Positions 2,461 through 41,338 of a stretch of 41,338 nucleotides of DNA are shown piece after piece; position 1 is the first letter of the stretch, and every line of letters begins with the position of its first letter. Source of the DNA: Saccoglossus kowalevskii (Eukaryota; Hemichordata; Enteropneusta; Harrimaniidae). Both the position numbers and the translations under genes were made by a program. Location: NCBI RefSeq assembly GCF_000003605.2, contig NW_003109079.1, positions 473,510 to 514,847 of the forward strand. Direction: 5' to 3'. The notes beneath the pieces were generated by a model that was not told where the DNA came from, made no database searches, and saw nothing but the letters and a program-made list of their open reading frames with translations.

Positions 2461-3173
2461 ACAATGTAACATATTGTGAACAAGATACTTCGCGATGGGT
2501 GTTTTCTGCAATGAAATCTTTACAACTTGCTAGACCAGTTTTGCAGTTCCCATCCTATTCAAATATAATTTTGTTGATTTTGCATGATGACTGGCAATAT
2601 TCAGGCCCATTTTTAACAAATCCAAAATCACTCGAATAATTTTGGTTAATTTTCTTGTGTACTACGATTATATGTTTGCATTTATATTTTTATGAATTGT
2701 TTAGGTCTACTATAATTTTAGTAAATGTACACTTACAAAAACGGCCATTTACATTTTAGTATAGGAATCCTTATATTAACCTGGTCAATGATGTAGTTTT
2801 CCCATACATGTAACATGATGCGGACATTGTACGAATATTTTGTTCCTTGATTTTGCATTTACAGTTTCGCTATTTAGGTTACATTACGAAGTCTTTTATA
2901 ATTACTCCCAAGTGTTTCCCTTCAACCCATCCATTTTTTGAAAAAAAAAGAAGACATGGTAATTATGGTAATATGTTAGATTGTCTACAGCATATCGTAT
3001 CCAGCACTTGTTCGGAGACACAGCATTGTTTTGTCTATTTCGCTTACAAATCTGCACCAATCTCTACGTTTGTTACGGACTTATCCCCAAAGACGACGTG
3101 TGAATTTTAGCCAGGTAATTACTTACTTGTCGTTGTCTGGCTGGCATTTTTTTCAAATTGAAACGAGACGTTT
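2461..3173. other. unassigned segment between array and promoter-like cluster
   Basis: AT-rich to about 2980, then moderately GC-richer. A frame from about 2996 to 3113 ends at a CAG|GTAATT donor-like site on +, but it is short and two frames are open, so it is not called as an exon. Nothing else is supported. Confidence 0.3.
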
Positions 3174-11839: not shown

Positions 11840-12266
11840 CTAGAGAGATTATGATTTGGATCAATCAAGAAATTGCTGTATTGATTTAGATCTGGGATGA
11901 TTTGAATCAATCAAGGAATTGCTGTATTGATTTAGATCTGAGATGATGTGAATCAATCAAGGAATTGCTGTATTGATTTAGATCTGAGATGATTTGAATC
12001 AATCAAGGAATCGCTGTATTGATTTAGATATGAGATGATTTGAATCAATCAAGGAATATCTGTATAGATTTAGATCTGAGATGATTTGAATCAATGAAGG
12101 AATTGCTGTATTGATTTAGATCTGAGATGATTTGAATCAATCAATGATGGAATTGCTGTATTAATTTAGATATAGGATGATTTGAATCAATCAAGGAATT
12201 GCTGCATTGATTTAGATCTAGGACGATATGGATCAATCAAGAAATTTTTGTATTGATTTAGATCTG
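11840..12266. repeat. 46-bp minisatellite, about 9 units
   Basis: The unit contains GATTTAGATCTGAGATGATT followed by TGAATCAATCAAGGAATTGC and TGTATT. GCTGTA recurs at 11875, 11921, 11967 and 12013, exactly 46 bp apart. One unit has a small insertion (ATCAATCAATGATGG). The array ends only about 90 bp before the 42-bp array, and both contain a TGAATCAAYCAA-like block on one strand, which hints at shared ancestry. Confidence 0.9.
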
Positions 12267-12358: not shown

Positions 12359-13655
12359 GAACCAAAATCATTGGTTGATTCATAATTACATTAACAATAA
12401 CCACTACTACCACTGGTTGATTCCTCATTTCATTGACAATAAGCACTACTACCACTGGTTGATTCCTCATTTCATTGACAGTAACCACTACTACCATTGG
12501 TTGATTCATAATCTCATTGGCAATAACCACTACTGTGATTGGGTGATTCATAATTTCATTGACAGTAACCACTACTACCATTGGTTGATTCATAATTTCA
12601 TTGACAGTAACCACTACTACCATTGGTTGATTCCTCATTTCATTGACAGTAACCCCTACTACCATTGGTTGATTCATTATCTCATTGGCAATAACCACTA
12701 CTGTGATTGGTTGATTCATAATTTCATTGACAGTAACCACTACTACCATTAGTTGATTCCTCATTTCATTGACAGTAACCACTACTACCATTGGTTGATT
12801 CATAATTTCATTGGCAATAACCACTACTGTGATTGGTTGATTCATAATTTGACAGTAACCACTACTACCATTGGTTGATTCCTAATTTCATTGACAGTAA
12901 CCACTACTACCATTGGTTGATTCATAATTTCATTGGCAATAACCACTATTGTGATTGGTTGATTGATAATTTCATTGACAGTAACCACTACTACCATTGG
13001 TTGATTCCTCATTTCATTGACAGTAACCACTACTATCATTGGTTGATTCATAATTTCATTGACAGCAACCACTACTATCATTGGTTGATTCATAACTTCA
13101 TTGACAATAACCACTGCTACCAATGGTTTATTCCTCATTTCATTGACAGTAACCACTACTACCACTGGTTGATTCCTCATTTCATTGACAGTAACCACTA
13201 CAACCATTGGTTGATTCATAATTTCATTGACAGTAAGCACTACTACCATTGGTTGATTGATCATTTCATTGACAGTAACCACTACTACCATTGGTTGATT
13301 CCTCATTTCATTGACAGTAACCACTACTACCATTGGTTGATTCATAATTTCATTGATAGTAACCACTACTATCATTGGTTGATTCATAATTTCATTGACA
13401 GTAACCACTTCTACCATTGGTTGATTGATAATTTCATTGACAGTAACCACTACTACCATTGATTGATTGATCATTTCATTGACAGTAACCACTACTACCA
13501 TTGGTTGATTCCTCATTTCATTGACAGTAACCACTACTACCATTGGTTGATTCAGAATTTCATTGACATAACCACTAATACCATTGGTTGATTCAGAATT
13601 TCTTTAACAATAACCACTACTGTGATTGGTTGATTCCTCATTTCATTGACAGTAA
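12359..13655. repeat. 42-bp minisatellite, about 31 units, each with a CCAAT box
   Basis: The unit is ACCACTACTACCATTGGTTG followed by ATTCATAATTTCATTGACAGTA. Most units carry ATTGG, an inverted CCAAT box. A second unit type with CAATAACC and TGTGATTGG recurs at 12534, 12702 and 12828, then at 12950, spacings of 4, 3 and 3 units. The last is 4 bp short because of a CATT deletion near 12850. As 42 is a multiple of three, minus-strand frames encode 14-residue repeats like VVVVTVNEIMNQPM. The 4-bp deletion splits this frame at about 12843, which argues against coding function. Confidence 0.95.
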
Positions 13656-15891
13656 GGATTTTCTTCATGCTTGAGTAGATAGCAAAAACATGCTAGCATC
13701 AGTTTATAAATAAAAAGGTTTAGTATGCATGTATTCCTTTTTTGACGGACCTCAGCCTATTCTACACACCTCATCTCCAGTGTGTTCTTGCATTTTAACT
13801 CAGTAGCCAGTCACTTGGGTATTATCATGTCTTGAACTGTTGTTTCTTAGGATCTGTCAAAAAAATACCTCCTTCTGATATTTCTTTAATTTAATGACTC
13901 CCTGGTGTGATGTTCATATCTTTACTGCTCAGAGAGAACTGGAATTCGTTAGATATGTTTGCAATTTTACAATTTGTACAACAATTTTATTATAGTAAAA
14001 TTATATTGAAAAATGTAGTACTGTTCATTTGATATATGTTTACCTATAAATAGATTTAGTAACTACAAAATTGTAATGGAGGAAATACACCAATCTATTA
14101 CAATTCTCTCGTTTACGTTATAAATACAGTAAAAACATATACGTGGAGATTATAGGATCGCAGTTTTATTGAGGGACATAATCATGTAAAATATAGCATA
14201 TAAATCACCATATTGCTGATTCAATCTGTATGTGAGTGAAGGATATGCTACAAAAAAAAATTATTATGGTTTTTTTTTTTTTGTATTTTAGATTTTTTTT
14301 CTGTATTTTGTGAATGCACCATCATTTTTCACATATTTTATATATTTTTTATATAATTTCTTTGTTAATTTGAAACCATATGGACATAATTTTTAATTAC
14401 TTATAGGTTATGATCAATATTTAACAAAAATTATATTCTTGGGAGTAGACATCAGGGCATTTTCACTGCTTGGCAACCATCACCGATTAAAACAATGGTT
14501 TTACCCTCCTGAACAAGATGTGCAACATATGTAAATTTGGTTGTTCAGGATTGTCTCCAAGTTGAGTTTGGGCTGTTTTCTTGATTTTAGCTGTTTTCAT
14601 TGGCTGTTCGACTGGCGTTCCACAGCAGATTGCGCAGAGCCCATAGAAAAACATGGTACAGTGGTGTGTCCAAGCAACATGGAAAATTCTGTGATATAGC
14701 TTTGCCCATCGGGAATAAAAATAAGACAAAAATTGACTTTAGCATTCAAAAATTTAAAAACAAATTAAAACATATATTCGTAGTATTCTGTGAGCAGAAT
14801 AGACCATTTTCTGTTCACTGTGAGATCCCAACGTAAAATCGAACGTAAAAACAGAACAAACAAAGGTCATAGCATCATGGGGGCTTCAAACATCACATGG
14901 GACTTGACAAACGCAAAAGTATTTTTGGGGATATTTCCACGCATAATAATGTGCTATATACATTTGATGATGGTCAATTTCGATAAAGTAAGGGTATCTC
15001 AACACAATATTCCCCTGTCAAAGATTGGCCTTTCGACTTTGAGCTATGAAAAAATGTTTGCAGCAGACGTTCGGTCCATGTCTTTTAAGCAATATGCAAG
15101 ATCTTGCATTTGAACTGAAAATCACTAATTATGTACACACGACTAGGTGAATGCATTAAAAATAAACCAAATTATATCATAAATATAATATGTCATCTCT
15201 CATTTCTGACAGTTATCAATGAGCGGTATCTTGGTTTCTTAAGTACAGTATTTTAATATTTAATTTTTTCAACTTCTGTGACATGCCTGTGAATTGTATA
15301 AGGGACAAACATCTAGAGGCAAAGCAGACATTTCCTGCCAGGCCAGTTGCTACATAAATCTCTTCTAGCATTCTGAATTAAGCTGCAGGGTATATGTGGT
15401 TTAATGGTAACATGGACTGTCTAAAGTTCACTAATTTATTCGGCGTGGGGAGATAGGATGCTTGGGGGAGAGTGTACATTTGTATTTATTAACTTTAACA
15501 AATGTTGGCAATGTTTTTTGTCTGAGATTTTTTTTTTTAAATGAATGAGTTTAGAAAGCTAATTTAGTTGAGTTTTTGTTACAGAAGGGATGAAGTCCTG
15601 GTTATAAGAAGTCACCCAATTGTTAAATGCAGGTGTAATAATTGAACAAAAGAAAAGACAAATCCCATCTCTTTGTGGCATCCATGAATTATATGATTAC
15701 GTAGAATGTATAAGTGAACAAAACTAGATGTCAATAAGGGAATTGAATTGAAACCCTGGAGAATTTGTTGTTTGTTTGCTCATACCTATAGCCATAAAAG
15801 TACTTCTCAAATGAGAGTCATTGAGCACACTTTGGATGATATACTGTGTACAAGAATGAGATCTCAAACAATGTTTTAAGCAAGCGTACTG
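13656..15891. other. unassigned, AT-rich
   Basis: Contains an A/T homopolymer-rich stretch around 14250-14300. Around 14590-14700 sequence is GC-richer and a T-rich tract ends in TTGATTTTAG at 14590. The following + frame is open for 35 codons, but the minus strand is open over the same bases for 80 codons. Neither shows a known motif. No RNA gene is seen. Confidence 0.3.
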
Positions 15892-16103
15892 TACTGTAAA
15901 ATACTTTATTTTAGCTTGAATTAATTTTCGCTGAAAAGACTTTTTGGGTGTTTTTGTATGCAATTTATTTTCACTGATTTTTGATGAGTTGAATGTAAAA
16001 TATAAAAAAAGGTATATTCGCTGGATTTTATTTTCACTGAATGATCCCTTCAGTGAAAATAGTGAAAAAAAAATTCCAAGCAGAAATAAAGTTTTTCACA
16101 GTA
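15892..16103 (+). mobile_element. ~212-bp TA MITE, copy A
   Basis: The left end is TACTGTAAAATACTTTATTT and the right end is the complement of TACTGTGAAAAACTTTATTT. It has the same internal order as copies C and E, with TTTTCGCTG/TTTTCACTGA motifs in both orientations and a central TGAATGATCCCTTCA inverted repeat. Ends bounded by TA fit a Tc1/mariner-type target duplication. It has no coding capacity. Confidence 0.9.
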
Positions 16104-17214
16104 ATTGTTAAGATTAAATATTGAGGGTAATAGCTGGCACTTAAAAATAAAAAGTGAAATAAAACAAAATATCAATGGAGTAATTAAAAGCATCCCCTCC
16201 CCCTCAAATAGGATGTATGTTATTTAAGGAGGGTGAAACTGTTGTCAGGGTCTAGCCCTAGTTAACCACCACAGCGTTGGATGTATCAGACAAATGCAAT
16301 CAACCAACCTCATCTGTTGGAAATATACCCAGTATAATGGTTCCATAAATGTATATTTGGAGTCGTGTTAGCTCTTACTAGGTGTATAATTTCCCCCTTT
16401 ATAAAATGCAGTTTTCATTAACAATGTTCAATTTAACACCACACTGTCTCTCTGACTGTACCTTGATGGACCCTAGTGGTAAAGTATATATCATCATACG
16501 CACACATATCTCTCTGAGGTTATTTGTCTTATGACTGACAAATGCCATGCTGCTGCTAAGCTCACTTTTCAATGAGGCATTGCCTATATCATGAGCTGTC
16601 CGACTCCAGTGGGATTGGCAATCCGGCGACAAGCCAAAACAATCTGTTATTTTCTTCTGTTTTTCTTTGAGATTTAATTCATCGAAGGATTTCCATCGAT
16701 TCCCTCTAAGATGCATAAATGCTGAGGATTTCTGTTTTGGATAATACTGGCACCGTTATGGTCATTTTGATTACGTTATAAGAGTCTAGCAAAAAATACC
16801 CATTTTGTCATCTTTGTTAAAAAAATAATGGCTGAAGAATCTGATGCAACAAAGACCACACAAATGCTGCATCAGAATTCTACTTCTGCAAGATTTGTAC
16901 TCGCAGCAATTTCCATAACCTTAAAATCACAATGTGTTAATATCTAAACTTCAGACAGAATCAGGTATGCCATATATTGAATAGTGTTTTTAATTTTTTG
17001 CAGCTAGGATTTGATGATTTACTGGCGTTATGGGGGATAACATTTTGCGAAAGTCGCTGTGACTGCACTTTGCCTTTAAATCCTATTAACATTTTTACTG
17101 CTGCAACATATTATTTTAACTGACCTCCAAAATTTGTGAAAATTTGTTTCTCAGGAAATTAATGTTGATTACAGTAATAATTAAATACATATTTTATATT
17201 TACAGCTTTTGACC
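16104..17214. other. unassigned, AT-rich
   Basis: Holds a 105-codon minus-strand frame, 16399-16716, starting MHLRGNRWKSFDELNLKEKQ, with a possible donor AAG|GTACAG after 85 codons. Composition is protein-like, but no domain is recognised and one or two frames of this length are expected by chance. Nothing else is supported. Confidence 0.25.
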
Positions 17215-17399
17215 TACTACTTTTATGCTATATTCACAGAAGTGGTGGTTCAGTGGAAATAAAATCCAGCAAATTTACCTTTTTCCTTATATTTTACATT
17301 CAACTCATCAAAAATCAGAGAAAATAAATTCCATACAAAACCCTCAAAAAGTTTTTTCAGTGAAAATTCATTCCATCTAAAATAAAGTTGTTAACAGTA
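17215..17399 (-). mobile_element. ~185-bp TA MITE, copy B, degraded
   Basis: Reverse orientation relative to copies A, C and E. It ends AAAATAAAGTTGTTAACAGTA and contains ATTCAACTCATCAAAAATC and AAATAAAATCCAGC. The end near 17215 is eroded and about 25 bp are missing relative to the full-length copies. Confidence 0.8.
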
Positions 17400-19436
17400 T
17401 TCAGTACACATAAATATTGAGTAAATTTGTATTTGTGGTATGATGAAAGTTAGTTATGATCTTAGCCTTTACACTGCCAGTTCCCTCTTTTCATCACAAA
17501 TTCACAAAATAATCCCCTTTATAGTCTGCACTTTCCTTCAGTAGATTGGGACCAAAATAGCCAATTTTTTGGAGTGAAATCTGAAAATTTACTCAAATTT
17601 TGTCTGTTGGCTCTCAAATTTCATTTCCAGGAATATTGAAAAATATGAGAAAAAACGAAGAAAAATTTAAGGCAAGAAATTCTAGTGGTGAAAAGGTTAA
17701 AACTGAAATCGTTACTACAGTAGAAATAAATGTGACACTGCACGAAGCTTATAAAGACTGCAATATCAAACGCCTCATTTGTCTGCATGCCAATTTATTC
17801 AAATATAGTATCTGGCAAAATGAGTTTTTCTATTGTGATGTCTATCATTATATGTTTACTATACTGTATCTGATTCAACCTGTTCGAACTTGACGTATTC
17901 GCACATTGCGATGTTTTGGGGTCATTACATTTTTTTTTTATTAGGGGCTTTGAAATTTTTCATGGTGCAATTGTCTGCCAACAAGGGAGGTCAATTCAGT
18001 ACGTTGAAAATGATAAGTTGACTCACGAAATAAAACTGTTGGGAATACGAAGAGCAAGTATCAAGTGATGTGTTCCCGCTTAAACCCGTCGAGGGAAATA
18101 CACAGCTCACAATTGTAATCACTTCTTGATATTGTCTTGTCTGTCTGTCTCCATAACTAGTTCTGTTAATAAAACAGAGTAAGAAAAAAAACACTACAGA
18201 TGTAAGCTTTCGGTTACAACCTTTGACCTGTGGTCAGAGTGTACCACACTGTGCAGTAAGTTGTTTTGCAATCCAGTTTACCGACTCCAAACATCTATAC
18301 TTTATGTACAAGTCAGTGACACTGGTGAATGTTATCTTGTATAAAGCTTTTCAAAGTGAGAAATACATGAAATATTAATAATTGCTAGCATCATTTTTGA
18401 AAGGAAAAGTAATTATCATGATAATTAATTTAAATTAAATATGATTAATTCATGGTATGATGGAATGGCTTCAAGGAAATGTGCGATAGGATAGATTTTT
18501 TTTCTAATTCTCTCTTTTTTTTCTACAGATTATGTTTTTACAACAGGGTGTATTGTTCCTACTGTTCTTCTTTTCAGGAAAATATATAAAATGAACTATT
18601 CTTTATACAATATATTTTTTCTTGTGTAAGAGATAACAATCTTGGGCTTTTAAGTGTAAATGAAACCAGTAGATTGAGTAAAGTAAAAAGCTTTGGTATC
18701 TGTGTTTGGATATGCGAACATGTCAATGATTCCCTCAGGGTTTTACTCGTAGGGGAATGTGGCTTGTATCAATGTTTTATATTTAATAGATTTCACCATA
18801 GATGTGTGAGTAGTAATCACATAATTTCTTTAAGCGGTGTGGGTTCACCAACTTTTCACAGTCTTTTTTTTCTTCTTTTATATAACTGAGAACTGTATAC
18901 AGAGAACATTCCAATGAGTGCAGAATGACGCAAACATTCATATAGTCAGTCCACAGCTGCCGCCTCTGCCTCCGGAAAATCAATTCTTAGAGGGGCGGTA
19001 ATTCGTTTTTCCTAAACCGCAATGACATTTTGAAAAACAAAAACGCCGTCGTAGAGTAGTACACAGTTGAAAAGAAGGCTTAGCACATTGAATTACAGAA
19101 AACTGCAGACGGTGAAACCTTGTTTGCGCAGTAACTCAATAATGCCATGCAAGTTACACGCAAATGTCTAGCCCCAAACATGTACGAAAAATCAATTTGA
19201 CGAAACGAAATGCAAAGGGAACGTTTCTGAGTTGCTAGAGTATGCATAAAGTAGACTCAGATTGACTTTCATTATATCGCTATGATATTTAGTGAACTAT
19301 TTGATCCACTAAAAATTGTGTTGATTGAAAACACTGCATTGGAATGCTCTAGCCAATATAATTGATTATAAAATTGTTTACATTTGTTTTTGATAGTTTA
19401 GTGTTGAGAATGTAATATTTATGAACAAGTTAGAGA
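17400..19436. other. unassigned, AT-rich
   Basis: A good acceptor (CAAATTTCATTTCCAG at 17630) precedes a Lys/Glu-rich frame of about 30 codons, but A-rich DNA readily gives such residues and no firm donor follows. A GC-richer patch at 18950-19010 shows no supported gene. Confidence 0.3.
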
Positions 19437-20133
19437 GTCATTATGTCATTATAATTCTGAGCTAGTTAGGGAGTATTGAGGTCATTATTATGAGCTATTT
19501 TTTATAATTATAAGCTAGTTTGGTAAGGTTGAGTCTTTAGAATTATAAGCTAGTTAGGGAGTATTGAGTAATTAGAATTATAGCCTAGTTGGGAAGTAAT
19601 AATTCACAAGAATTATGAGCTAGTTAGGGAGTATTGAGTAATTAGAATTATAAGCTAGTTGGGAAGTACCGTAATAATTCATAAAAATTATGAGCTAGTT
19701 AGGGAGTATTGAGTAATTAGAATTATAAGCTAGTTGGGAAGTAATAATTCATAAAAATTATGAGCTAGTTAGGGAGTATTGAGTAATTAGACTTATAAGC
19801 TAGTTGGGAAGTAATAATTCATAAAAATTATGAGCTAGTTAGGGAGTATTGAGTAATTAGAATTATAAGCTAGTTGGGAAGTAATAATTCATAAGAATTA
19901 TGAGCTAGTTAGGGAGTATTGAGTAATTAGACTTATAAGCTAGTTGGGAAGTAATAATTCATAAAAATTATGAGCTAGTTATGGAGTATTGAGTAATTAG
20001 ACTTATAAGCTAGTTGGGAAGTAATAATTCATAAAAATTATGAGCTAGTTAGGGAGTATTGAGTAATTAGACTTATAAGCTAGTTGGGAAGTAATAATTC
20101 ATAAAAATTATGAGCTAGTTAGGGAGTATTGGT
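19437..20133. repeat. 70-bp dimeric minisatellite, about 10 units
   Basis: Each 70-bp unit holds two related 35-bp halves: AATTATAAGCTAGTTGGGAA plus GTAATAATTCATAAA, and AATTATGAGCTAGTTAGGGA plus GTATTGAGTAATTAG. GTAATAATTC recurs at 19741, 19811, 19881, 19951, 20021 and 20091, exactly 70 bp apart. The left part is irregular, including a CCG insertion near 19668. There is no coding frame. Confidence 0.95.
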
Positions 20134-21749: not shown

Positions 21750-22345
21750 ATGATTATTCACCAATCACATGGTGTGTAGCTGTCACATATTACTCACTAA
21801 TCACAAGGTGTGTGTGTAACTGCCAAATATTATTGACCAATCACAAGGTGTGTAACTGCCAAATATTATTGACCAATCACAAGGTGTGTAACTGCCAAAT
21901 ATTATTGACCAATCACAAGGTGTGTAACTGCCAAATCAGGGATCGAAATACCCTGGTGCACACTGCACTATGCACATAGATTATTAGCTCGTGCAAATAA
22001 ACTCAAAATATAATGTGCACGCTGTGCATGTAGAAATTAACACATTTTCTCATTATATTCACTAAGTCTAAATTAAGTTCAACCAAGATTGTGAGACAAC
22101 TAGAAAAAATAAAATTCTTTCACAATCGCATCAATCGAGAACCCGTCAATTTTATTTAAAAGTGGTGCATTTCACAACAAGTTAGTGCAGGTAAATTTCA
22201 AATTCAACATGCACACTATGCATGCAGGGAAAAAATTCTATTTCAATCCCTGCAAATATTATTGACCAATCATAGGGTTTGTAATATTATTCACCAATCA
22301 GAAGGTGTGTAACTTCTAAATATTATTCACTAATTGCCAAGTAAA
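21750..22345. repeat. 36-bp minisatellite with CCAAT boxes, interrupted
   Basis: The unit is TATTATTGACCAATCACAAG plus GTGTGTAACTGCCAAA. TCACAAGG recurs at 21841, 21877 and 21913, exactly 36 bp apart. Outer units are diverged. The array is split at 21937-22252 by a transposon and resumes at 22253 with CAAATATTATTGACCAATCA. Confidence 0.9.
21937..22252. mobile_element. 316-bp TIR element inserted in the 36-bp array
   Basis: It starts CAGGGATCGAAATA and ends with the complement of CAGGGATTGAAATA, a 14-bp terminal inverted repeat with one mismatch. CAAAT precedes and follows it (21932-21936 and 22253-22257). Neighbouring intact array units give the empty site, GCCAAATATTATT, so the duplication is exactly 5 bp. 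Subterminal GTGCACACTGCACTATGCA and TGCACACTATGCATGCA blocks form a second inverted pair. It has no coding capacity and is therefore non-autonomous. The CAGGG end is hAT-like, but classical hAT elements duplicate 8 bp, so the superfamily is uncertain. Confidence 0.9.
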
Positions 22346-26508: not shown

Positions 26509-26721
26509 TACTGTGGAATACTTTATTTTCGCTGGAATTAATTTTCGCTGAAAAGGCTTTTTGGGCGTTTTGTATGGAACTTATTTTCACTGATTTTTGA
26601 TGAATTTAATGTGAAATATAGGAAAAAAAAGTATATTCGCTGGATTTTATTTTCACGGAATCATCCATTCAGCGAAAATAGCGAAAATAAATTCCAAGCG
26701 AAAATAAAGTATTCTACAGTA
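26509..26721 (+). mobile_element. 213-bp TA MITE, copy C, best preserved
   Basis: The ends are TACTGTGGAATACTTTATTT and the complement of TACTGTAGAATACTTTATTT, nearly perfect inverted repeats. It retains CpG forms of the internal motif (TTTTCGCTGG, TTTTCGCTGA, AGCGAAAATAGCGAAAAT) that are CA/TG in other copies, so it is probably closest to the ancestral sequence. Confidence 0.93.
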
Positions 26722-34907: not shown

Positions 34908-35103
34908 TACTGTAAAATTTCTACTTGGAATTGATTTTCACTGAAGGAATGATTCAGTGAAAATAAAATTCAGTGAATATACATTTTTTCCTATATTTTA
35001 CATTCAACTCTATAAATTAGTGAAAATAAATTCCACACAAAAAACATGCATAAAATCATTTCAGCGAAAACTAATTTCAGCTAAAATAAAGTATTTTACT
35101 GTA
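34908..35103 (-). mobile_element. ~196-bp TA MITE, copy D
   Basis: Reverse orientation. It begins TACTGTAAAATTTCTACTTG and ends CTAAAATAAAGTATTTTACTGTA. The central inverted repeat is intact (TTTTCACTGAAGGAATGA, then TTCAGTGAAAAT). Slightly shorter than copies A, C and E. Confidence 0.88.
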
Positions 35104-38100
35104 CGATATTTTCTCTAAAGTAAACATGTGAAGAAAAAAGCCACACATTTTTGTGTTATAGTTAGGGCTTGAGAGTTAGCAAATTCGGGAAAGGGAGGAG
35201 GTAAAAAAAAAATATGAAAATTACAAGAATACCTGAAAGTATGCACGAAGACAGTATAGCTGGAGTGTTGATCGACGTGCAGCGGAGGTAGATGCATGGC
35301 GTACTGTCTGAGTGCATAATTTGCGGTATACACGTAATAACCTTATTATTATTCATCTTTTCCTTCCAAGGATACACTATGGGAATGCCGAAATCCAAAA
35401 AGTTTAGAACTGTTTAGAATCAGCAAACTTTTTTGTGTGGAGTCTGGTCAAACCCCAGTGGCAGCCATGTTTGTTTTTATTCTTAGAGGACACTGATGTG
35501 CGTAATCATTCAATATTTGGAATTCGCATTTCCTTATATGGTAGGATGAAAATACCCCGTAAAATACTGCAAAATTACGACACGCTGTAAATTATGGCGT
35601 TACGGTGACAGATAATAATGATGATTATTACATGCATAATGTATATATCTTTATAGTTTGACGTAATACAGGAAAGATATGCATATCACTTAGTTTGCCA
35701 TCATTTTTTTGCCTGAATGTTGTTGGGAACTTTCGGTTGATATGAGGTCTGTACAGTTTACGATAAAAATAGGTTATTTTGGCTCTTGTGTGTTATTATA
35801 CAGTCTCTTTAAAAAACCAGTTGAAAAAATTCTACCAATTGGAACAAATACCACGGACAAGCAGAATCACCATACAGTGTATGCAACAAGGTGTCTGAAT
35901 GGAATGAAAACCATACTGTTAACAAAATTAGCATACAAGGTTCACAAAATGATATACCGGTATTTGTATTGGTGTTATTTCAGCACTTCACTTTTCTGAA
36001 CTGTGGAAATAAGCTTGTGATGAATATTTAATTCCTTGATATTGTTTCTTAAGCTGACGCCAGCATACAATCGTGATTACTGCCAGAAAAGCATCAATCC
36101 CTGCTAGCTGCTCAGATTGATACTAAATCAATTGTGTTTGCCATGTCGACCTGAAAGAAAATATTATGGTATATAGAAATAGTAATAGTAATATTAATAG
36201 TAATAAATGATGGATTGTTTTTCAAAGTTTTACACTGTGCAGACCCCAACTCCAGTTTTCATATCATCGCCCCCCCCCCCCCTCGAGTTTTTAATGGTCA
36301 ACTCCTTAGCTGCAAAGTAATGTAGCTTTTCACTTTTTTGAGAAACTATCAAATTTTATATAAAATATGTTTTTGTAACCCAATGTCATAATGAACTAAA
36401 ATTGACATAGGATAAATGCTGTGACTGAGGTGGACTTTTCAAAATGGTTTAGAATACTGTTAATGGATGGATGAGATTACCTCCAAACAATCCTGTCCAT
36501 CATCTCATTCTTATATCTTTTATGATATATGACTTTTATTACATTCTTTAATTGTTTCCATTTGGTTACGCTTACTTATAATATTGTATGTAAATCCTTT
36601 GGGGAATTCTTTGTCCTTTCTCAGAATTCCTGGTAAGTATAGTACACAGATCTCTATCCCAGTCATGCATAGAGTGGAGAGAAATAAAGATACTGTCTGC
36701 TTCGTCGTTATGGTAACAAGACACTGCTTTTTAGTTATATAAGTATATAATTTTTATGTCATTGAAAACAAGTGATAAAACGAAAAATATAATAAGGCCA
36801 TGATAATTAAAATCTTTGTTTTTCATCATGTTTCTAAAGCAAACAGAAATTTGGAATGACAAAAATAGTTTTGCGATATATTTAACAACAAACAAACATG
36901 CTGTGATTAATAGAAAAAAGTAGGTTCTAAACATTTGTTTCAGGTACTTCATGTTTTTCAACTTATTTTCCCATCCTGAAACTCAAAAGAAATAATATTA
37001 GACATTTCAAAGTTTTCAAATTTGTTTAAACTACAAATCTGAATAAATTTTCTAGGATAATTATGATATTTATTTTTATTACCCTTATTTTTCTTAAAAA
37101 CATTTGTAAATTTAACATTAAACATTAAAACATGATTTTTAACAAAAGAAAACACTTGAAAAGATTTTTTATGTTCTTGTATTGTTCTGTGAATACCTGT
37201 ACTTGAATACATTATCTAGGATCAGCTGCAATTTTTATCTCTGTAACAACCAATTTCTGTTTCCATGGTTGTTGACCTTTGACCCACGGGATCATATTTT
37301 GGATGGTAAATTTGTTCAAATCTTCAAAAGTGTAGTGAACTATAGAAAGTTTCACCTCAGAGTTACTCAGGCTATAAAATTGCTTTTTTATCATTTGATG
37401 ATCAAGATTAAGAAAGATCAGTGTCTGTGTGACATATCTCAACGAGTTGTGCTGGTACGACTTCTTCCTAAAAAAAACGGTAGCTCTATTGCTTTTATGT
37501 GCCGTACATATGTTCCTTGGCTGGCCCTTTATGAGATTTGTTTATTTGGTGATGATGTCTTCAATTTAAAATTGTTGGTATTGTATGCATAGCTCAATCA
37601 ATGTCATTGTGTGTTGTCTTGCTAAACCTGCTGATATTAATAAAAAAAAATGAATCATTGTTTATTGAATCAACCAAAAATTATTATTTTTATTTCATAC
37701 ACAAGAAAAAAGTAATTTCTGTTTGAGTGTAAGCTATAATAGTTCACAATCGTGAAAAGACAATTTTTAACTATTTTTAAATTTTTAAAATTTTGTGTGC
37801 TTTTCAAGTTTTTACATTGTCGTCTATGGGGAGTTTGCAAAGTTCCAAGATATATTCCTAACTGACTGTCTGAACAATTCTCAGAACGTCTATGAGCCCT
37901 AAAAGTCACACTTCCTGGCACTTCCTGGTGGTATGCCAGCGATAACTTGAATGTTACACCTTACACTTTGCCATGTTGAAATGTTCTTGATTTTCAAAGC
38001 CGACAGCTTATATTGGTTTTAGAAAAAATAAAGTGAATTTTTACCCCTTTCCCCACCTACAAATGACAGGATGTGACTATTCAGAAGTACCAGGATGTGT

Positions 38101-39320: not shown

Positions 39321-39936
39321 TAGTGTGATCGTGTAATATGGAAGTACCCCCCCCCCCCACCGGTAGTTCTACTTGAAGTAGTTCTAAATGAAGTTACAAC
39401 GAAAAAAAACCAGTCTAATTTAATCACAATGATTTCATTAGTAACAGTAAAACAAACCACAACTCAATTGCAATAACCAGAACTATGTGTACATAAAAAT
39501 AAAATGCTGTCTAAACTTAAGATATGTTAATTAGAATTTAATTAGAAGAAACTGAGACTGAAAATAAAAATGCAACTTGCCATTTGAGATAATACCAGAG
39601 ATCTTATCACCAACATCTTTATAAGTTAACTTATCAGTATTTTGCTGTTATAACACAGCCTACAAATTATCAGCAACTATCACCCTCTAGCTGAAAAAAT
39701 ACTCCAAGGCTTTATACACTATCAGCTCTAATTACTTCACTAATTGAATAATATGATTGTTAATTAAATGGGTAATTAATACCCTAACTTGAGATCTCTC
39801 CAGGGATCAGTGCTAGTAGTTGGTCACTTTAAAAGCCATTAATGTATTGAAGGCTATAGGTGAGATTATTGCTATGGTTCCCTTAGCAACAGTGTTCTTC
39901 ATAAGTTGGTTATATGTGATCACCTTATTTTCGGAC
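39321..39936. other. unassigned, AT-rich
   Basis: A C-run at about 39349-39358 is the only low-complexity feature. No exon or RNA gene is seen. Confidence 0.4.
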
Positions 39937-40148
39937 TACTGTAAAATACTTTATTTTAGCTGGAATTAATTTTCGCTGAAAAGACTTTTTAGGTGTTTTG
40001 TATGGAATTCATTTTCACTGATTTTTGGCGAGTTCAATGTAAAATATAGGAAAAAGGGTATATTCACTGGATTTTATTTTCACTGAATCATTCCTTCAGC
40101 TAAAATAGTGAAAATTAAATCCAAGCGAATATAAAGAATTCCACAGTA
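39937..40148 (+). mobile_element. 212-bp TA MITE, copy E
   Basis: It starts TACTGTAAAATACTTTATTT and ends with the complement of TACTGTGGAATTCTTTATAT. Same order of internal motifs and same length as copy A. Confidence 0.92.
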
Positions 40149-40974
40149 GCTGCATAACTTGTACCGGTAACGCCCTAAGAAGTGCAATGTATTATATATT
40201 TTAAGTATACACTGTATACATTTGTTTTAATTGATCATGAATATCTAAATCTATACTCAAGATTTCTCTATCTAGTTTTAAGTGAAATATAATTAAACAT
40301 GTTTAACACTGATGATATATCTTGTTGGTTTAGTAGTAAATGTAGTTGTCAATTGTCTCCATGCTCTAATGGACACAGCTAGTATATAGAAGGTGACAGC
40401 TTATACAACATTCAAGATATCAATGCCTAAGCAAACATCTCTATTTTGCAATTGCAGTTTTCTTACTTATGTACCATATTTAGTACTTATTCTTTAATAA
40501 CGGAATGTACCAGGTATAAGTACTCTTTACTATAAAAATGTTTTTGATGTTAGCGCACTATCGAGTGAACAAAATGAAAAATTTTCCAGTAGAGGTCGAA
40601 ATTCACTCCTAATCAGTATAATAATGTACACACAATGGATGCTACCAAATTGTATATCTTGTTCTCAGATTCTGGATACTCATTTGTGCATATTAATTAG
40701 ATAATTTGCATATTAGCCAATGTAGGAACATTTATTAATACATTCCCTAGTATTTGGAACTAATCAATGAAATGTTGTTGAAATATGTGTGCTAATTAAG
40801 AATTCCATTGTTTGTTTGCAATTCTGTCCATATTATTCAGCTAATTTGCATTATTAAATTAATAATATGATCCAACTTTACCACAGTCAATATAATAGTC
40901 ATCTTCTTTTCTGGTATGTTCCAAATTTTATCAACTTCAATATAACTTCAATTCCAAGTAAAACCAGGAATGTG
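40149..40974. other. unassigned, AT-rich
   Basis: No supported gene, RNA or repeat; AT-rich with several ATTAAT and TTTGCAT words. Confidence 0.4.
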
Positions 40975-41338
40975 ATAAATGCACAACATGAATGTGATAA
41001 ATGCACAACATATGTGTGTTAAATTTACAACATGAATGCGATAAATGCACAACATGAATGTGATAAATGCACATGAATGTGATAAATGCACAACATAAAT
41101 GTGATAAATGCACACCATGAATGCGATAAATGCACAAAATGAATGTGATAAATGTATAACATGAATGCGATAAATGCACAACATAAATGTGATAAATGCA
41201 CACATGAATGTGATAAATGCACATGAATGTGATAAATGCACAACATGAATGTGATAAATGCACAACATGAATGTGATAAATGCACAACATGAATGTGATA
41301 AATGTACAACATGGATGCGATAAATGCACAACATGAAT
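40975..41338. repeat. 22-bp minisatellite running off the window end
   Basis: Unit CAACATGAATGTGATAAATG plus CA, about 16-17 copies, some shortened by deletion of the CAACA part (near 41070 and 41200). It is cut by the window edge. Since 22 is not a multiple of three, all three minus frames read through it, giving overlapping Cys/His/Ile-rich frames of 95-130 codons that are artefacts. Confidence 0.95.

Follow-up and report, generated by a model that had tools for sequence, protein, structure and literature searches.

A short non-coding transposon with a 5-bp target duplication and a hAT-coding relative in Saccoglossus kowalevskii

Background

Transposons of the hAT superfamily usually leave 8-bp target duplications, and the published groups hAT5, hAT6 and hAT7 are described in passages of PMC12730594 as departing from this length. 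The same passages credit the naming of hAT5, which comprises hAT elements with 5-bp duplications, to Kapitonov and Jurka 2007 (Repbase Reports). hAT5 elements were previously found in some invertebrates and fish and are called unusual for their 5-bp duplications in an excerpt of PMC9004415, and a hAT-hAT5 group is named in Hydra in an excerpt of PMC12220107. The main text of PMC6004678 contains no mention of hAT5.

A comparable short element is Mar of Drosophila. According to excerpts of PMC3517528, Mar is short and non-coding, is assigned to a hAT parent, and has inverted ends and duplications on most copies, all of which are also true of the family described here. However, the duplications of Mar are 8 bp long and conform to nnnTAnnn, and its ends are 11 bp, whereas the present family has mostly 5-bp duplications and 14-bp ends.

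The element studied here lies in a stretch of 41,338 nucleotides (the window) from contig NW_003109079.1 of the hemichordate S. kowalevskii. Related sequences were sought in the genome from which the window comes (572,110,611 bases in 4,830 contigs).

Results and discussion

An insertion with a readable empty site

The element interrupts an array of 36-bp tandem repeats (Table 1). The flanking sequences are CTGCCAAAT on the left and CAAATATTATTGACC on the right, and an intact array unit reads CTGCCAAATATTATTGACC, so the two flanks overlap by exactly CAAAT and the target duplication is 5 bp. The insertion is a clean case because the array units themselves supply the empty site. The array, the empty site and the CAAAT duplication had been proposed in an earlier note on this DNA and are confirmed by this comparison; the element also begins and ends exactly at the two positions, 21937 and 22252, that the note had given.

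The inverted ends match at 13 of 14 bases. Inside them, TGCAC and ATGCA words make up a 48-nt direct repeat and a 23-nt inverted pair, and the second inverted block that the note had described there is real.

No transposase was found by Pfam in the 10 of 37 open frames of the window that were searched. One match, to ChrB_C (1.1e-5), lies in a minisatellite frame and was taken as spurious, since no stretch of it passes alone. Rfam, at gathering thresholds, gave no match in the window, neither the viral contigs nor the genome contigs searched contain an exact match to a 34-base subterminal word, and PDB and NCBIfam searches returned nothing useful.

Table 1. Coordinates, in the window, of the element and of features inside and beside it
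Feature	Position	Strand	Remark
36-bp tandem array broken by the element, 5 copies	21753..21936	+	intact units give the empty site
TG at -3,-2 before the duplication	21929..21930	+	family target preference
CAAAT, left copy of 5-bp target duplication	21932..21936	.	
Non-autonomous hAT element (MITE), 316 bp	21937..22252	.	no coding capacity seen
Left terminal inverted repeat, CAGGGATCGAAATA	21937..21950	+	93% complementary to right end
Subterminal word GTGCACACTG	21956..21965	+	further copies at 22015-22024 and 22209-22218
48-nt subterminal direct repeat, left copy	21986..22033	+	71% identity
Inner inverted block, left arm, 23 nt	22016..22038	+	78% complementary to 22200-22222
48-nt subterminal direct repeat, right copy	22180..22227	+	71% identity
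Inner inverted block, right arm, 23 nt	22200..22222	-	78% complementary to 22016-22038
Right terminal inverted repeat, TATTTCAATCCCTG (reverse complement CAGGGATTGAAATA)	22239..22252	-	93% complementary
CAAAT, right copy of 5-bp target duplication	22253..22257	.	
Diverged array remainder past the insertion, period 28	22255..22312	+	

Copies in the genome

The earlier note had suggested that a genome search with the ends would recover relatives, and many copies were found. A similarity search located at least 40 distinct places (41 matches, including the window copy; 40 of 130 candidates were scored). An exact pattern of the right end gave 77 genome matches, 47 of them new, against 0 for a reversed control. 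Flanks were read at the resulting 87 loci, of which the similarity search contributed 40 and the right-end pattern 47.

When the first 40 copies are aligned, the commonest base has a mean share of 0.92-0.98 in five inner regions. Over the 15 bp beyond each end its share drops to 0.42-0.43, which fixes the ends of the element independently of the window copy. Each of these copies differs from the majority base at 2.0-7.3% of the columns present in the window copy. Length is 271-368 bp in 72 of the 76 copies with two scoreable ends.

The 683-bp copy at L081 contains a repeat also present at 14798-15054 of the window, a likely nested insertion. A composite insertion made of L116 and L117, both on contig C3982, was considered and rejected: their flanks were unmatched in the pairings compared by eye.

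A coding relative with the same ends

At locus L090 (contig C453), the left and right ends of the family lie 3,054 bp apart and are flanked by a duplication of TTTGC. Pieces of the intervening sequence match the hAT C-terminal dimerisation region (Dimer_Tnp_hAT, PF05699; E 4.5e-6, 26.8 bits, Pfam cut-off 21.4) and an N-terminal DNA-binding zinc finger (zf-C17orf113, PF25431; E 2.1e-7, 31.1 bits, cut-off 29.5). L090 is thus the transposase-coding copy that the earlier note had advised looking for, and its domains bear out the suggestion that the CAGGG ends are of hAT type. A central run of 1,740 bases in L090 consists of N, no continuous transposase is seen, and there is a frame change in the C-terminal part.

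Positions 1-225 of L090 align with the window copy at 82%, and positions 2957-3054 at 97%. Four other small copies align to both ends likewise, the right part starting from 2933. Because the small copies comprise both ends of L090 without its interior, the window element is best read as the larger element minus its gene. The ends that it has in common with L090, together with the interior-deleted alignment, make it a non-autonomous hAT element (MITE), and the family is short, non-coding and multicopy, as MITEs are. A different short derivative of 320 bp occurs at L128 (G000:C93:52700-53500, positions 192-511); in it, 303 bp from the left of L090 (98%) are joined to an apparent inverted left end, and the flanks are ACATT and ACATG.

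A second coding copy, L127 on contig C1210, is decayed. It is 84% identical to positions 170-731 of L090 and matches zf-C17orf113 at 5.6e-14 (52.2 bits, cut-off 29.5). It contains no N, and it has many broken frames, a damaged right end and a left end that is not recognised. The pieces ILSDGSTE and CFDGASVMMG...HCLAH in L127, and CERGFS in L090, were read by eye in these decayed or partial copies and may represent the D, D and E catalytic motifs of hAT transposases. Pfam assigned none of four other pieces of L127, the two D-containing ones included, to a hAT family.

When the C-terminal piece of L090 was used as a protein query, seven matches were obtained. Three of them were weak; the others were L090 itself, two members of a sister family and the decayed C1210 copy. 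An N-terminal piece used as a DNA query gave three matches, to L090, to the C1210 copy at 83% and, over 54 bases, to contig C93. L090 is missing from the 34 matches of a genome-wide Dimer_Tnp_hAT search, its 26.8 bits falling below the weakest match listed (28 bits). The ends of the window family, allowing up to two mismatches, are absent from 30 Dimer_Tnp_hAT loci among these 34 matches (about 1.5 kb on either side). None of the stretches read contains an intact transposase, and a live source of the enzyme may exist.

Two of the 30 loci, L074 and L075, have related ends, CAGGGCTCGAAATTAA, next to long runs of N. They belong, with L078 and L079, to the sister family, whose ends have CAGGGnTCGAAAT in common with those of the window family. 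The C-terminal transposase of the sister family includes Dimer_Tnp_hAT and is 46% identical over 78 aa to that of the window family. A 32-base pattern of the sister-family end gave two genome hits, both beside long N runs; no second end occurs in the stretches read, and both coding parts run into N.

Length of the target duplication

Duplication lengths were scored for the 76 copies with two scoreable ends. Exact duplications of 5 bp flank 53 of them, the coding copy L090 included, and eight others have longer exact duplications (six of 6 bp, one of 7 bp and one, L034, of 8 bp); 15 have none. The earlier note had proposed such a tally, with consistent 8-bp duplications as the outcome that would count against a 5-bp lineage, and only 1 of 76 copies shows exactly 8 bp. 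Flanks mispaired between copies give, for every 76, 0.14 duplications of 5 bp, 0.026 of 6 bp and none longer. With this control near zero, the duplications of 6-8 bp are not due to chance.

Among the 15 copies without an exact duplication, five (L019, L041, L080, L102 and L121) show a 5-bp duplication that differs at one base, and L120 has the 5-bp duplication CTCAT if one extra G is allowed in the left end (by eye). An 8-bp duplication with two mismatches is seen at L013. L122 was kept among the 15, and its left end is probably spurious (three mismatches). Eleven of the 87 loci were left out because an end was not recognisable (L012, L026, L028, L037 and L046; L085, L093 and L099; L111, L112 and L123); one of these, L037, has a damaged left end, next to which an exact 6-bp GAAAAA is present.

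In all eight copies with duplications of 6-8 bp, the sixth base of the left end is G. Longer duplications thus occur in 8 of 36 copies with this G and in 0 of 25 others, a post hoc comparison with Fisher p = 0.017.

Target preference

The dinucleotide TG occupies positions -3 and -2 before the duplication in 25 of the 61 copies that have an exact duplication of at least 5 bp; the first and second sets of loci contribute 13 of 30 and 12 of 31, respectively. This is far above the flanking control, which for the first set averages 2.2 of 30 over offsets 3 to 199 upstream, the next highest offset reaching 7. Base use was also compared, position by position, with the average of the sites, at 19 positions extending to 7 bases on either side of the 53 duplications of 5 bp, with p values uncorrected for the number of positions. 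At -3, T is present in 39 of 53 (p = 4e-8), and at -2, G is present in 26 of 53 (p = 3e-8). A weaker excess of A lies at +3, three bases past the duplication (28 of 53, p = 0.004); here the 17 of 30 observed does not stand out from the control, whose mean is 10 and which reaches 16 at three other offsets. Either T at -3 or A at +3 is present at 58 of 61 sites. The window insertion has the TG, and at +3 it has T, not A.

The TG preference and the spread of 5-8 bp are two small details that may be new. The literature passages that we consulted contain no statement of either for hAT5, and both may already be in print. They are testable properties of hAT5-type cutting, unlike that of the better-studied 8-bp hAT elements. 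A bolder and rather doubtful proposal is that a single hAT5-like family leaves 5-8 bp according to its left-end sequence, with longer duplications only from CAGGGG ends, and chooses targets by a TG that lies outside the duplication and is oriented toward the left end. If true, the family would be an intermediate showing how the hAT stagger can shift from 8 to 5 bp.

Identity and mechanism of movement

The window element is very probably a non-coding cut-and-paste transposon that was derived from a 3-kb hAT element by deletion of the interior and was mobilised in trans by a hAT5-type transposase. The 5-bp duplication does not exclude hAT membership, since hAT5, hAT6 and hAT7 depart from 8 bp. 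As judged from excerpts of the hAT5 literature, hAT5 elements and the present family are alike in their hAT transposase and 5-bp target duplications; they are unlike in that a minority of 6-8 bp and the outside TG have been measured in the present family. By duplication length, the family would fit the published hAT5 clade. The earlier note had suspected an unusual hAT lineage that makes 5-bp duplications; the length holds, but the lineage is not an unknown one, hAT5 having been named in 2007. The element is a clean but largely ordinary example of an already known kind, and its value lies in the tie between a non-coding element and a coding relative, with duplication length tabulated over 76 copies.

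The element most likely arose when a 3-kb element encoding a hAT transposase lost its interior, leaving about 225 bp on the left and about 100-120 bp on the right. The TGCAC-rich inner repeats that were retained are probable binding sites for the transposase. The enzyme, supplied in trans, would bind the ends, and probably the inner repeats as well, and excise the element. The target would presumably be cut with a 5-bp stagger, preferably where TG stands two to three bases beyond the cut next to the left end. Repair of the gaps after insertion would leave CAAAT in duplicate.

Alternatively, the family could be a 5-bp hAT lineage of separate origin, outside the Repbase hAT5 clade. Its zinc finger belongs to the C17orf113 class, and literature searches on C17orf113 returned no paper that would place this finger in Repbase hAT5 proteins. 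Against this, the duplication length and the superfamily are the same as those reported for hAT5 in the sources consulted, and we consider a separate origin unlikely.

Two further explanations are very improbable. Transib elements also leave 5-bp duplications, and a Transib-like or other superfamily making 5-bp duplications might simply have CAGGG ends in common with the family. However, Transib elements have a RAG1-like transposase and ends that start with CACWATG, not CAGGG, and the coding relative with the same ends as the window element has hAT domains above the Pfam cut-offs, which largely refutes this explanation. Equally hard to credit is an ordinary 8-bp hAT element whose window copy has 5 bp by accident: L034, L013 and the copies with 6 or 7 bp favour it, but the 53 copies with exactly 5 bp refute it.

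Other repeats in the window

Another small inverted-repeat element occupies 26509-26721, with 25-nt arms that are 96% complementary and 163 nt apart; the region 26500-26727 matches several loci of the same genome at up to 93% identity. Dispersed repeats at 15890-16125, 17227-17701, 34908-35128 and 39934-40150 are common to other loci (13-19 hits per bin), and 15892-16069 and 17221-17399 are mutually inverted copies about 1.2 kb apart. The repeat at 14798-15054 also occurs in L029, L081 and L088, and the peptide EIERKNRTNKGHS, in an open frame of this repeat, is found both in the window and inside L081. Minisatellites are frequent in the 41 kb, with units of 33, 46, 42, 35/70 and 22 bp at 326-2460, 11851-12266, 12369-13655, 19502-20131 and 40968-41338, respectively.
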